This document shows positions 25,446 to 30,666 of a DNA stretch of 64,000 nt, piece by piece. Under the pieces are notes generated by a model that was not told the origin of the DNA, did not search any database, and worked only from the letters and a program-made list of their open reading frames with translations. The DNA comes from Acinetobacter proteolyticus (GTDB lineage: Bacteria; Pseudomonadota; Gammaproteobacteria; Pseudomonadales; Moraxellaceae). How positions within the stretch are numbered: position 1 is the first letter of the stretch; every line of letters begins with the position of its first letter. The position numbers and the translations under genes are program-made. The stretch spans positions 3,597,263 through 3,661,262 of the forward strand of contig NZ_KB849179.1 of NCBI RefSeq assembly GCF_000367945.1, written 5' to 3'.

Positions 25446-27143
25446 CTAAACGGCTGCAGCAGCCACTTGATCGGTGGTTAATACCCCTTGTTCAATCAAA
25501 CGGTTGGTACATGCAATGATGGCTTCGATTGATGAAGTCACGATGTTGTCATGGACACCCGCACCAAATGCGCTCTTACCTGTGCCTTTCACTTGAAGCT
25601 CAATCAAGGCAAGTGCTTTGGCATTGGCACCTGAACTGATACTGCGCTCTTCATAGTTCACAACATCAATTGGTAACTGTAAGGCATTCAACATGGCTGA
25701 GATCGGGCCATTACCTTCTCCACGGAGACGCTGAATTTCACCGTCAATTTCAACGTCTAATTCAATGATTTGTGTACCATTGATATCCGACAATTGATAA
25801 TGTTTGGTTTGATAATGGCTATTCTTCACATCCACATAAGTATTTTCAAATAAGGTCCAGATTTCATGTGCACTGATTTCTGTACCATTTTCATCGGTAT
25901 GCTGCTGTACGATCTGACTGAATTCGATTTGAACACGTCGTGGCAAGGCAACGTTGTAGTTCGATTCCAATAAGTAAGCGATACCGCCTTTACCTGATTG
26001 GCTGTTGACGCGAATCACTGCATCGTAGTCACGACCCAAGTCTTTTGGATCGATTGGCAAGTATGGCATATCCCAGATTTCTTCATTTTTCTGGAATTCG
26101 AAGCCTTTTTTAATCGCATCTTGGTGTGAACCAGAGAACGCGGTAAAGACTAAATCACCTGCATATGGATGACGAGGGTGCACAGGTAAACCTGTACATT
26201 CTTCAACTGTTGCAATGATTTCATTGATATTTGAGAAGTCTAAGTTTGGTGCAACACCTTGGGTATACATGTTCAAGGCGATCGCAGCAACGTCCACATT
26301 ACCCGTACGTTCACCATTACCAAACACACAACCTTCTACACGGTCAGCACCTGCCATAATCGCCAATTCAGAGGCTGCGATACCACAACCACGGTCATTA
26401 TGACAATGCACAGAGATAATCACGCCATCACGACGTGCCAAGTTACGGTGCATCCATTCGATTTGATCGGCATAGACATTTGGTGTAGACACTTCAACTG
26501 TTGCAGGCAAGTTCAAGATGACTTTATTGGTTGGTGAAGCTTCCCAAATTTCAGTCACAGCATCACAGACATCTTTGGCAACGTCTAATTCAGTTGCAGA
26601 GAAACATTCTGGGCTATACTGGAAAATCCAGTCTGTTGCAGGGTATTGCGCTGCATATTCTTTGACTTTGCTTGCCGCATTAATGGCAAGTTGTTTTGAG
26701 CCATTGGCATCGACATTTAAGACCTTCTGGCGGAAAGTCGGTGAGTTTGAATTATAGATATGCACAATGGCACGTTCTGCACCGATTAATGCTTCAAAAG
26801 TACGTTCAATCAAATGATCACGTGCTTGAACCAAAACCTCGATATAAACATCTTCAGGAATCAAATCTTCTTCGATCAACTTACGGGTAAAGTCGAAGTC
26901 AATTTGAGATGCAGAAGGGAAACCAATTTCAATATGTTTGAAGCCGATTTTAACCAACATGTGGAACATTTTTAATTTTTGATCCATATCCATCGGCTCA
27001 AAAATCGCTTGGTTACCGTCACGAAGGTCGGTACTCATCCAAATCGGCGCTTGATTGATTTCATTATTCGGCCATTGGCGATCTGGTAAATCCACTCGCT
27101 GGTACATACGGCGGTATTTTTTGCTTGGGTCAGCCAACATCAT
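25446..27143 (-). CDS. leuA: 2-isopropylmalate synthase (long, actinobacterial-type form)
   Basis: The 565-residue product starts MMLADPSKKYRRMYQRV, with SD AAGGAG 7 bp from the ATG. The TIM-barrel start is STDLRDGNQAIFEPMD (metal and substrate site), with HCHNDRG carrying two His ligands. The C-terminal regulatory (LeuA dimer) domain runs from about residue 430. The total length and start fit the 560-600-residue LeuA class rather than the E. coli-like 523-residue class. It condenses acetyl-CoA with 2-oxoisovalerate. Leucine feedback and the leader peptide upstream are probable controls. Confidence 0.95.
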   Translation of the reverse strand: MMLADPSKKYRRMYQRVDLPDRQWPNNEINQAPIWMSTDLRDGNQAIFEPMDMDQKLKMFHMLVKIGFKHIEIGFPSASQIDFDFTRKLIEEDLIPEDVYIEVLVQARDHLIERTFEALIGAERAIVHIYNSNSPTFRQKVLNVDANGSKQLAINAASKVKEYAAQYPATDWIFQYSPECFSATELDVAKDVCDAVTEIWEASPTNKVILNLPATVEVSTPNVYADQIEWMHRNLARRDGVIISVHCHNDRGCGIAASELAIMAGADRVEGCVFGNGERTGNVDVAAIALNMYTQGVAPNLDFSNINEIIATVEECTGLPVHPRHPYAGDLVFTAFSGSHQDAIKKGFEFQKNEEIWDMPYLPIDPKDLGRDYDAVIRVNSQSGKGGIAYLLESNYNVALPRRVQIEFSQIVQQHTDENGTEISAHEIWTLFENTYVDVKNSHYQTKHYQLSDINGTQIIELDVEIDGEIQRLRGEGNGPISAMLNALQLPIDVVNYEERSISSGANAKALALIELQVKGTGKSAFGAGVHDNIVTSSIEAIIACTNRLIEQGVLTTDQVAAAAV

Positions 27144-27276
27144 GAGAAAACTCCTTGTCGTAGCATGGTTGCTGAGTCAAATAAAAGGCAACGTGCTACA
27201 GATATATATGGTGTCTATAAGAATTAATTTAAAGCGAATTCGGGGATCGAGTGCCTAAAAAAGTAGGCGAAAAAAT
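27144..27276 (-). promoter_or_regulatory. leuA leader RNA with hairpins before the leuA SD
   Basis: After the leader-peptide stop come ATTTTTT, a hairpin GCCTA-CTTTTT-TAGGC (about 27253-27268), and a strong stem GTAGCACGTTGC/GCAACCATGCTAC (27160-27199) that ends 5 bp before the SD ACAAGGAG. The last stem could hide or expose the leuA start region depending on ribosome position on the leader. No classical GC-rich stem followed by a U tract was found, so the exact mechanism is open. Confidence 0.55.
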
Positions 27277-27363
27277 TTATACGCGCGCGAGGCGCAGCAT
27301 CAGGAGAAGTGCAGCGAGATGTGTTGTATGAGACGGGTGGGTAAAGCCGCGATTTGTTTTCAT
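27277..27363 (-). CDS. leuL: Leucine-rich leader peptide upstream of leuA (28 residues)
   Basis: This short frame reads ATGAAAACAAATCGC… and ends …HLAALLLMLRLARV then TAA. Six of 28 residues are Leu, five of them in a 7-residue run interrupted by one Met and one Arg, coded by CTC, CTT, CTC, CTG, CTG, CTC. A second ATG lies directly upstream (27366). The SD is weak. It is 133 bp from leuA on the same strand. The position and Leu-codon cluster are those of a transcription-attenuation leader peptide; expression is inferred. It is too short for ordinary ORF calling. Confidence 0.75.
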   Translation of the reverse strand: MKTNRGFTHPSHTTHLAALLLMLRLARV

Positions 27364-27553
27364 CATCTACCATTCATATGGGGTATTTAATTTTGCAGTT
27401 ATATTAATCATCTAACGATATTCAGTCTAGGCGAAAATACAGACGACTGCAAAGGTCTATAAAACATTTTAATTTGAATGAATGGAAAATATTTTCCTAA
27501 TTTTTGCGCTATTTTGTGTTTGGTGAGAAAAAATTCCCATAATTTTGTCAATT

Positions 27554-27580
27554 AGAGATAAAAAAATTAATTTTATCTCT
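27554..27580 (-). terminator. Possible terminator of piuC
   Basis: AGAGATAAAA and TTTTATCTCT arms face each other across a 7-nt loop, 22 bp past the piuC stop. The stem is AT-rich and has no clear T tract, so it may be weak. Confidence 0.4.
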
Positions 27581-27601
27581 TTGATATGAAATGTGTACGA
27601 A

Positions 27602-28285
27602 TTATAGCTCAGCCCACTTTCGCATGAGGTTGTGATAAAGATTGGTCATTTTAATCACTTCTTGATGAGTGTCACCAAGCTGTACACGCAAATTTTGGAT
27701 CGTCTGATCCAGTGTAAATAACATATTACGTTCTGCATCATCACGGATCATGCTTTGTAACCAAAAGAATGAGGCCGTTCGACACCCGCTACTAATTGCA
27801 GTCACTTCATGCAGACTAGATGAAGGGTAGAGCACCATATCGCCCGCAGGTAATTTGGCTTCATGATAGCCGTAAGTATCTTCAATGACCAACTCACCGC
27901 CTTCATATTCATCAGGTTCTGATAAAAACAAAGTGCAAGATAAATCGGTACGTAAGCGTTCTTTCGTGCCACGAATTCGACGGATTGAATTATCAACATG
28001 AAATCCAAAAGATTCCTGATTTTCATAACGATTGAAAAGTGGGGGGATAATATCCAGCGGTAAAGCGGCTGAGAGAAACAGGGGATGCTTACCCAGTTCT
28101 TCTAAAATGATGTTACTGAGATGGTGGGTTAAAGGGTGATCTTCAGGCAGTTGCTGATTATTTTTCACTGTAGCGGAGAGGGTACCTGCCGTAACTTTGC
28201 CGTTGGTCCATTCGATTTTATCCATTTCTTCGCGAAAGTACTGAACTTGTTCTTTGCTTAATACATTTGGAATATGGTGGATCAC
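27602..28285 (-). CDS. piuC: PiuC-type Fe(II)/2-oxoglutarate dioxygenase (PKHD-type)
   Basis: The 227-residue product starts at a GTG at 28285 with SD AAAGGTAGC. The iron triad is FGFHVDN (His96, Asp98) and SSLHEVTAISSGCR (His159), with Arg169 for 2-oxoglutarate. The PKHD family fingerprint RYENQESFGFHVDNSIR is present. In Pseudomonas and Acinetobacter, piuC lies beside the receptor piuA, as here, and is iron-regulated; its substrate is not settled. It follows piuA on the same strand. Confidence 0.92.
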   Translation of the reverse strand: MIHHIPNVLSKEQVQYFREEMDKIEWTNGKVTAGTLSATVKNNQQLPEDHPLTHHLSNIILEELGKHPLFLSAALPLDIIPPLFNRYENQESFGFHVDNSIRRIRGTKERLRTDLSCTLFLSEPDEYEGGELVIEDTYGYHEAKLPAGDMVLYPSSSLHEVTAISSGCRTASFFWLQSMIRDDAERNMLFTLDQTIQNLRVQLGDTHQEVIKMTNLYHNLMRKWAEL

Positions 28286-28386: not shown

Positions 28387-30666
28387 TTAGTATTTGAAGT
28401 TGACAGACAATACTGCACTGCGTCCTTCCGCTTCAGTTGCATAGTGCGATGCATAGGCTTTCGTGAAATAACGTTTATCCGATAAATTATTAATGTTTAG
28501 TTGTAGGTCAACATTTTTATCAACGTTATAACGAGCCATTGCATCGTAACGAACATAGCCTGGAACCCATTTGGTATTCGCTGCATCACCATAGACTTTA
28601 TCCATCGCTACTGCACCAGCGCCTAAAGTCAGCTGTGGTAAAACTTTATAGGTTGTCCAAAGCGTTGCTGAGTTTTTCGCAACGTTTTGAACTTGGTTAC
28701 CATTATTTGGACTTGCTACATATTTACCACTGCTGTCCTTAACGAAGCCAGCATCTACGATTTCACTATCTAAATAGGTATAACCAGCCGATACCGCCCA
28801 TTTATCTGTGATATAACCATTCGCACCAAGCTCAATACCATCAACACGTGTTTCACCAATGTTTCTGGTGAAACCATCCGTATCTAAGGCACGTGTATTC
28901 TCTTTTTCAGTACGGAAAATAGCAGCAGTTAAATTCAATTTATCATTCAATAAATCCCATTTAGTGCCGATTTCATATGTTTTAACTTCTTCAGGTTTTA
29001 GGTTGTTGATCGCACGAGACTGTTCATCCGTTGTGTTTCGGCCAGGTACGCTAATACCTTCTGAACCGTCACCCGCATCAACACCGACAGGGTTTGCAGA
29101 GGTTGCATAGCTGATATAAATCGCACCGTTTTCAGCTGGTTTGAATGTAAGGCCAGCTTGATAATTGAAGAAATCATGACTTGAATCGTACTTTGTTCCA
29201 GCTTTGATTGAACCTGAATCCTTGTTGTACTTCATATCAGTTTCAAATTTGTCCCAACGTACCCCAAGGTCAAGTAACCATTGTGGGGTAAGGGTGATAT
29301 TGTCTAGAACATACACTGATTGCGTTTTTGAGGTGATATTTGTGACATTAGGATTTGCTTTGATATTACCTAACCATGCATCACCTGCATGAGGGTTGTT
29401 TAGATCGGTACACCAACCATTGGAACTGCTTAACGAACAAGCATTATTTGCACCGCTTCCCCCAATTTTTGCAGTGTTTGGATCGGTAACAATGTTGGTT
29501 CCACGATCTGAATCTTGTTTAGAATATTCAACACCCGTATTAAAGCTGTGCTTAAGTGAACCTGTGTTGAACTTACCCGTTAATGCCAACTGATCTGTAA
29601 AGGTATCTGTATTGGTTAAATTGGTATTGACTCGGCGCCAAACTTGACCATTTACAATATTACCTTGACTATCATCTGGTTGAGTCCATAAATAATCATT
29701 TTTAGATTTGCTATAGACGGCTGTATTACTTAGGGTTAAATTTTCGGTTAAATCATGTTCTAACTTGATGGTACCGATCTGATTTTCTTGTTTTTGGAAG
29801 TCACGATCTTTCCAACCGTAATAGATACCTTGCTTAACATCTACAGGTTTACTAGCAGTTGCTTTTTTGGTCGTATCATATTGATATGGAACACCAGAAT
29901 CTGGTTCATCATTAGTTTTTAAGTAGTAATAACTTAAGGTACCACGTGTCGCAGAATCTAGACCAAAGCTGATACTTGGAGCAATACCCGCACGCTTATA
30001 CTCGGCACCCTCATGTTGCCCAGCTTTTTCATTTTGGTGGCCCATGACTACAACACGGCCTGCAACACCATTACCAAAATCTTTATTCCCGTCTAAAGTA
30101 ATTCGGGCATAGTTGTCTGTACCACCAGAAATCGAACCTTCTAAAGCATCACCTTTTTTAGCGACTTTAGAAATCATGTTGATGCTACCGCCTGATGTAC
30201 CTGCACCACCTAAGGCAGACGCAGAACCTTTGGTTACTTCTACTTGTTCAACTGCAAACATTTCGCGGTTTTGAGATGTTGAACTACGAACACCGTCAAC
30301 ATACATTGAGCTTTCAGAGTTATAACCACGAATAAATGGGCGGTCACCGTTTGGGTTACCGCCTTCACCTGCACCGAGTGTAATACCTGGAATGGTACGT
30401 AATGCATCACTTAAGGTCGTAACCTGAGTGTCTTCAATCAGTTGTTTAGAAATCACAGAAACTGATTTTGGAGTATCAAGTAGAGGAGCAACAAATTTAG
30501 TATTTGCAGATTTATCGACTTTCAAACTTTGTTCTTTTTCAGCTTGAGCATGAATTGTTGGAAGCTGAACTGCCTGATCTTGTGCAATCGCTGGTACTGC
30601 AATTACTGAGAGTGAAGATGCAATTGCAGAAGAAACGAGTTTCTTCCGTGATTTAATAAAAGACAT
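28387..30666 (-). CDS. piuA: TonB-dependent siderophore receptor PiuA
   Basis: The 759-residue product has signal peptide …SLSVIAVPAIAQ, then the plug domain (LLDTPKSVSVISKQLIEDTQV, LSDALRTIPGITLGAG, RPFIRGYNSESSMYVDGVR, VEVTKGSASALGG) and a 22-strand barrel that ends in aromatic Phe-Lys-Tyr. The plug pattern is that of catecholate receptors (Fiu/PiuA type) that also import siderophore-mimic antibiotics. It sits beside piuC. A Fur box lies 35 bp upstream of the ATG. Confidence 0.9.
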   Translation of the reverse strand: MSFIKSRKKLVSSAIASSLSVIAVPAIAQDQAVQLPTIHAQAEKEQSLKVDKSANTKFVAPLLDTPKSVSVISKQLIEDTQVTTLSDALRTIPGITLGAGEGGNPNGDRPFIRGYNSESSMYVDGVRSSTSQNREMFAVEQVEVTKGSASALGGAGTSGGSINMISKVAKKGDALEGSISGGTDNYARITLDGNKDFGNGVAGRVVVMGHQNEKAGQHEGAEYKRAGIAPSISFGLDSATRGTLSYYYLKTNDEPDSGVPYQYDTTKKATASKPVDVKQGIYYGWKDRDFQKQENQIGTIKLEHDLTENLTLSNTAVYSKSKNDYLWTQPDDSQGNIVNGQVWRRVNTNLTNTDTFTDQLALTGKFNTGSLKHSFNTGVEYSKQDSDRGTNIVTDPNTAKIGGSGANNACSLSSSNGWCTDLNNPHAGDAWLGNIKANPNVTNITSKTQSVYVLDNITLTPQWLLDLGVRWDKFETDMKYNKDSGSIKAGTKYDSSHDFFNYQAGLTFKPAENGAIYISYATSANPVGVDAGDGSEGISVPGRNTTDEQSRAINNLKPEEVKTYEIGTKWDLLNDKLNLTAAIFRTEKENTRALDTDGFTRNIGETRVDGIELGANGYITDKWAVSAGYTYLDSEIVDAGFVKDSSGKYVASPNNGNQVQNVAKNSATLWTTYKVLPQLTLGAGAVAMDKVYGDAANTKWVPGYVRYDAMARYNVDKNVDLQLNINNLSDKRYFTKAYASHYATEAEGRSAVLSVNFKY

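Follow-up and report, generated by a model that had tools for sequence, protein, structure and literature searches.

The 64,000-nt stretch of Acinetobacter proteolyticus DNA analyzed here (the window) carries, ahead of leuA, a short ORF that very probably encodes a leucine-responsive leader peptide, i.e., a LeuL-type stalling ORF controlling leuA. The leader ORF (27277-27366, minus strand; 29 codons plus stop; MMKTNRGFTHPSHTTHLAALLLMLRLARV) comes from the ORF list and is accompanied by related tails in 67/147 Acinetobacter species; counted from its second ATG, the peptide has 28 aa. Its six Leu codons (CTC, CTT, CTC, CTG, CTG, and CTC), its strand, and the 133 nt between its stop codon and the leuA ATG (27143) bear out the original prediction of a short Leu-rich frame before leuA. 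As a full explanation, a leader that senses leucine through ribosome stalling, together with a lock on the leuA Shine-Dalgarno (SD) that opens for leuA translation when leucine is short, has in our estimate an even chance of being correct.

Conservation of the leader ORF within Acinetobacter

The downstream gene, leuA (25446-27143, minus strand), encodes a long-type 2-isopropylmalate synthase of 565 aa, matching NCBIfam TIGR00970 and NF002991 above their cut-offs, and its SD, AAGGAG, is read from the sequence at 27151-27156 (minus strand). From codon counts, stalling would be expected on the codons CTT CTC CTG ATG CTG (27295-27309, minus strand): CTC and CTG together make up one of the 38 Leu codons in the window leuA (CTC 1, CTG 0), and across the 66 Acinetobacter species with the nucleotide core defined below, the leader Leu positions are CTC in 57, CTG in 62, and CTG in all 66. 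For Arg, the core uses CGC, and the window leuA has CGT 18 times and CGC five times. A candidate promoter for the leader transcript, TTGCAG-17-TAGACT (27424-27452, minus strand), was picked out by eye only, and TTTTCRCCTAGACTG at this site is common to many, not all, leader species; a consensus promoter scan gave one weak site only, and the candidate was not among its results. The genes farther upstream on the minus strand encode an Fe2+-dependent dioxygenase (27602-28285) and a TonB-dependent siderophore receptor (28387-30666), for which we saw no link to leucine.

LeuA was found in 172/175 genomes of the genus, from which 148 upstream regions were taken and 147 compared, locus L100 being left out because its LeuA start motif is missing. 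The nucleotide core CTGCG[CT]-N5-GCGC occurs upstream of leuA in 66/147 species (0.015 expected in shuffles) and an ORF with a related tail in 67/147 (69 regex matches minus the spurious L132 and L133), leaving about 80/147 species without a leader; since the species are related, none of these counts represents independent events. L025 has a diverged leader that the nucleotide core misses, and it is scored as non-leader in the core, folding, terminator, and stem counts and in the tree. In 66/66 species, the frame of the core continues open for 18 codons or more upstream with an ATG in it, and the remaining two frames hold an ATG in 0/66 and 20/66, the latter frame being open in 40/66. The N-terminal half of the leader is variable, with indels in multiples of three bases in the part of the Acinetobacter alignment that was inspected. 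Among named element-bearing records, those matching the locus best are Acinetobacter sp. ANC 3929 (91.4% over 4,223 nt), A. colistiniresistens (89.5% over 4,522 nt), and A. higginsii (91.1% over 3,554 nt), and genomosp. 15BJ matches at 92.6% over 3,028 nt. The leader is also present in the record of the A. baylyi type strain (L167). The core has a single exact match in the genome of the window, with no second one elsewhere. In five loci (L055, L070, L072, L073, and L074), the stop codon after the core is lost and the ORF runs five codons longer (..LLMLRQARILSFCL), the T run being retained. The original prediction had named an alignment of leuA upstream regions as its refuting test; here the prediction passed that test, the Leu frame and the Leu run being kept in 66-67 of the 147 Acinetobacter species, and conservation of the leader is also seen outside the genus.

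Core hairpin and leaders beyond the genus

The end of the ORF forms the core hairpin AUGC(U)GCGC-CUC-GCGCGCGU (27281-27300, minus strand), identified from the MFE fold, a scan, conservation, and frame-shifted variants, with an alternative register UGCGC-N5-GCGCG at 27282-27296 (minus strand). Scanning a genome collection with TGCTGCGCNNNGCGCGCRYATAA gave 95 stretches, of which 80 were analyzed (38 Acinetobacter and 42 others). The titles of 30 of these 42 name betaproteobacterial groups, and the remainder are Alkanindiges, other Moraxellaceae, MAGs of gammaproteobacteria or of proteobacteria not further specified, and a single Eubacterium MAG, apparently a chance match; the first long downstream ORF is LeuA-like in 69/80 stretches. 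Because the TGCTGCGCNNNGCGCGCRYATAA pattern itself imposes the core, we also took a leuA-anchored set from a betaproteobacterial order, which we infer to be Burkholderiales since its loci best match betaproteobacterial records (e.g., 89% over 2,608 nt). This set comprises 90 regions (30 long-type and 60 short-type) from at least 150 LeuA places in the order, chosen from the top of each type group, with several short-type rows passed over, one skipped at a contig end, and about 18 more long-type places lying outside the 90.

Within 320 nt upstream of leuA, the core is found in 43/90 regions (0.2 expected in shuffles), and its frame is open for at least 18 codons with an ATG in 43/43; the other two frames are open in 28/43 and 35/43 and hold an ATG in only five and six. 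A broader test, for an ORF that has a Leu run and closes with a GC hairpin, finds 48/90 regions (reverse complement, 1/90), consisting of 38 of the 43 core loci and 10 others, with L310 judged spurious and L378 uncertain. The leader occurs ahead of both LeuA types, long and short. Across 140 genomes of the order, at least 41 of 66 pattern places precede a listed LeuA match by no more than 330 nt, and the reversed control pattern gives seven places. We rejected the core as an element preceding other genes: for the 25/66 places away from the LeuA matches listed, the letters, surroundings aside, looked like chance. In the host family, the strict pattern is found in 21/119 genomes and 4/16 genera (one genus being a single genome), with a control count of 0.

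That the frame is fortuitous, and its conservation that of a DNA site or of chance, could be argued from the absence of the leader in about half of the species and from GCGC-N5-GCGC being an inverted repeat in DNA as well. However, the same frame with an ATG in every core-bearing locus of both sets (66/66 and 43/43), the Leu run, the stop close behind the hairpin, and the three-base indels make this reading hardly credible.

Core bases 0-4 and 11-14, including wobble bases, are invariant in 40/40 leaders of the order and almost invariant in 62 Acinetobacter leaders; the peptide pattern by which these rows were chosen sets some of the codon letters and leaves the wobble bases free. The sole change at core base 5 gives a G-U pair, base 10 is G in 7/40 leaders of the order, where the stem can become GCGCC/GGCGC, and the A residue of the peptide tail is also found as G, S, or T. 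Eight further loci carry TGCGC(G)-N4-(C)GCGCA or a near variant of it, in which the hairpin is kept with a four-base loop and the 3' arm lies in another frame, so that the peptide ends in LRVRAH, LRGRAH, LRPRAN, LRVCAH, or LRVRAR, with the stop codon still within a few bases of the stem. Since these eight loci shift the frame of the 3' arm yet retain the stem, it is mainly the RNA hairpin that is kept, and judging from the sequences, the hairpin seems to be under stronger selection than the peptide tail. The near-invariance of the core, down to its wobble bases, seems to exceed what pairing or the peptide would require by itself, and would fit a hairpin serving as the site of an RNA-binding factor, or a C-terminal LLRxAR acting as an exit-tunnel arrest peptide, with the Leu codons being secondary. 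We consider this improbable: the frame-shifted loci keep the hairpin and lose the residues, which weakens the arrest-peptide version, as does the variation of the A residue in LLRxAR-type tails, and we know of no RNA-binding factor of such a kind.

Beyond the stop codon, the MFE fold of the window contains a small hairpin, GCCUA-N6-UAGGC (27253-27268, minus strand), whose arms appear by eye to vary jointly in relatives, uncounted. The tract after the stop is T-rich in Acinetobacter and almost free of G in the betaproteobacterial order (47% C and 3.5% G over the 10 nt at +20 to +30).

Predicted Shine-Dalgarno pairing and possible transcription attenuation

In the MFE fold of the window, CUCCU within the Leu codons (27302-27306, minus strand), also recovered in the pairing-partner analysis, pairs with AGGAG of the leuA SD, forming a helix that encloses the core hairpin, the small post-stop hairpin, and the SD-proximal stem. 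Across 64 distinct leader-species sequences, masking 27 nt over the Leu codons raises the predicted SD accessibility from 0.24 to 0.49; the corresponding values are 0.25 with the stop region masked, 0.25 with upstream control masks, and 0.24 with downstream masks. Under Leu-codon masking, 53/64 sequences gain more than 0.1, none loses that much, and 11/64 show no rise; under stop masking, three rise. Accessibility is also higher when the leader is shuffled (0.42) or its Leu codons are recoded to TTA (0.48), and it is 0.43 in 78 distinct sequences of species without the leader. Of the counted SD pairing, 83% falls on positions -8 to -5, within the Leu codons. The folding is thermodynamic, leaving co-transcription and ribosomes aside, and a five-base helix spanning about 150 nt is modest.

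As a plausible mechanism predicted by folding, the CUC-CUG Leu codons of the resting mRNA would pair with the leuA SD AGGAG, resulting in poor leuA translation, with the core hairpin and the SD-proximal stem flanking the lock helix. When leucyl-tRNA is short, ribosomes may stall on CTC-CTG-ATG-CTG and cover CUCCU, leaving the SD free and allowing leuA to be translated; when leucine is plentiful, ribosomes would reach the stop codon and the lock would re-form. Freeing of the SD by a leucine-starved, stalled ribosome agrees with the masking, shuffling, and TTA-recoding results, and the folding predictions support, for the main Acinetobacter clade, the earlier suggestion that control may act on translation of leuA. 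For this species, we judge it about equally probable that the predicted lock is or is not the main output.

As a general output, the SD lock was rejected. In the betaproteobacterial order, where 37/43 loci had a usable start and SD, only 6/37 gain more than 0.1 in SD accessibility on Leu-codon masking and one falls; the SD there is mostly paired anyway (0.18 accessible), with its partners scattered (29 sequences). In Alkanindiges, other MAGs, and deep Acinetobacter (L025 not included), 0/9 rise by more than 0.1. Being unseen in the order and in these nine deep relatives, the lock would seem to be a local addition to an older element, and since the GC hairpin is common to betaproteobacteria and Alkanindiges, the hairpin would be older than the lock. 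Outside this Acinetobacter clade, the output step must differ.

Close to the SD, the stem-loop GTAGC.GTTGC/GCAAC.GCTAC (27160-27199, minus strand) was obtained from RNAalifold on 54 leader-species sequences and from single-sequence folds; it is exact in the window and ends 3 nt before the SD AAGGAG. In these 54 distinct sequences, the three outer pairs are kept in 54/54, the fourth in 53/54, and the fifth in 41/53, and the outermost pair changes from G-C to A-U in eight. The strong stem near the SD that had been proposed is real, its pairs being kept, but it is not specific to the leader: single-sequence folds predict it in 65/66 species with the core and in 75/81 without it. Because it is predicted with or without a leader, this stem does not itself belong to the sensor. 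For the non-leader set, and likewise for all species together, RNAalifold found no consensus structure.

The main competing reading is transcription attenuation at the core hairpin. Here the hairpin and the post-stop tract would halt transcription, except when a ribosome held up on the Leu codons sits over the 5' arm; in Acinetobacter the hairpin and T run would serve as an intrinsic terminator, and in betaproteobacteria Rho would act at the C-rich tract. The original prediction held the usual terminator to be absent or unclear, and this does not hold: a T run directly follows the stop codon (27270-27275, minus strand) and, together with the core hairpin, forms a terminator-like site at the ORF end in the window (27296-27270; two overlapping scan matches, 0.2 expected). 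Such a site overlaps the ORF end in 43/66 leader-bearing Acinetobacter species (2.8 in shuffles), and a T run follows the core in 63/66, where shuffling those bases would give 50.9. The C-rich, G-poor tract of the betaproteobacterial order points the same way, as do Campylobacter LeuL transcripts, whose ends are reported to lie a short way past the stop codon (PMC3847290), and one principle would cover both beta- and gammaproteobacteria. On the other hand, the T run of the window begins six bases past a five-pair stem, 23/66 Acinetobacter species fail the terminator scan, and in the order 41/43 loci fail it and 38/43 have no T run. A ribosome at the stop codon would cover the hairpin as well, so that termination in the fed state would need prior release of the ribosome, and attenuation leaves the predicted pairing of Leu codons with the SD unexplained. 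We regard attenuation as the principal output as possible yet rather doubtful; intrinsic or Rho-dependent, it could act together with the SD lock. A classical terminator farther downstream was rejected, being found in only 5/66 Acinetobacter species and 10/43 loci of the order.

Known leucine leaders and the DNA dyad of leaderless species

In enteric bacteria, leucine leaders are textbook knowledge; behind the leader ORF, an antiterminator and a U-run terminator form as alternatives to each other. No Rfam family matched the window leader or 10 loci at the gathering score, and the Rfam Leu leader, RF00512, is missing even from the E<=10 list for 27100-27600; among NCBIfam models, none matched eight leaders, and Pfam gave one weak match below cut-off. 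The enteric leu attenuator, whose Rfam Leu leader entry is RF00512 (PMC3766115), has a leader of roughly 28 aa that contains Leu codons and precedes leuA (PMC6123439). The leader studied here resembles this attenuator in its length of about 28 aa and its Leu codons before leuA, but differs in the missing RF00512 match and in a Leu run directly adjoining a hairpin within the ORF.

In Actinobacteria, the LEU element (Seliverstov et al. 2005, PMC1262725) places a leader ORF containing a Leu run ahead of leuA, and a base stem between these Leu codons and the leuA SD has been predicted. The Leu-run ORF before leuA is shared, and folding predicts the Leu/SD pairing in the main Acinetobacter clade, window included; in contrast, the predicted SD pairing is limited to that clade, being unseen in the betaproteobacterial order and the deep relatives, and the ORF of the Acinetobacter leader closes with a GC hairpin, the stem next to the SD being a separate one. 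The LEU element also has a predicted pseudoknot (PMC1262725), a kind of fold outside the scope of the folding programs used here. Epsilonproteobacterial LeuL (20-35 aa, with several C-terminal Leu residues and rare Leu codons) is similar as portrayed in PMC3847290, the window leader having 29 aa and CTC/CTG codons that are rare in leuA, although the passages on LeuL report transcripts ending just behind the stop and mention no GC core hairpin. In actinobacterial ilvB leaders, runs of regulatory codons overlap a hairpin plus U run (PMC1262725; ilvB-II, PMC10272879), similar to the regulatory codons that overlap or adjoin the terminator-like hairpin here, but those leaders concern another gene and other codons, and their intrinsic terminator is reported to be clear. 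The Acinetobacter leader would work like leucine leaders, yet belongs to none of the compared systems. The literature searched contained no report of this leader or of leuA leader control in Acinetobacter or betaproteobacteria; leu attenuators of betaproteobacteria may already appear in Vitreschak 2004 and Lopatovskaya 2010.

In the leaderless Acinetobacter species, the upstream-region comparison points to a possible alternative. A perfect dyad ATAGA-N5-TCTAT is present in 75/81 species without the nucleotide core and in 0/66 with it (e.g., L012, L013, L014, L018, and L020), sitting just upstream of the SD-proximal stem; the corresponding site in the window (27204-27218, minus strand) reads ATAGACACCATATAT. 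We take the dyad to fit the T-N11-A operator of a LysR-type regulator, and because it does so and alternates with the leader, control of leuA has possibly been swapped. A quick tree, with modest supports and long branches, suggests that the leader is ancestral in Acinetobacter and was lost more than once.

With a confidence somewhat below even, we propose one old module, consisting of a Leu run, a near-invariant GC hairpin, a stop codon, and a pyrimidine-rich tract, common to leuA of beta- and gammaproteobacteria and to two LeuA types, with its output re-wired (an SD lock in one Acinetobacter clade, something different elsewhere) and the module lost in other Acinetobacter lineages, where the perfect DNA dyad takes over its place at leuA; it would be a new leader class outside Rfam 15. 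Its 15-base core would allow leucine control to be predicted in many genomes, the apparently different outputs are a natural test of how attenuators are re-wired, and the alternation of leader and DNA dyad within one genus is directly testable.

Other short frames were seen near leuA. In L162, L198, L207, L221, L286, and L288, in all six downstream of the leader, and in L310 and L327, from some beta- and gammaproteobacterial genomes, a second short frame reads ...LRLRSGCQA-like or ...IGCRA-like and is possibly another leader. In L308 and L315, about 120 nt before leuA, a different Leu-rich ORF, ...LSLALLLMS.GQR(K/Q), is followed by a GCGCGCGC stretch.
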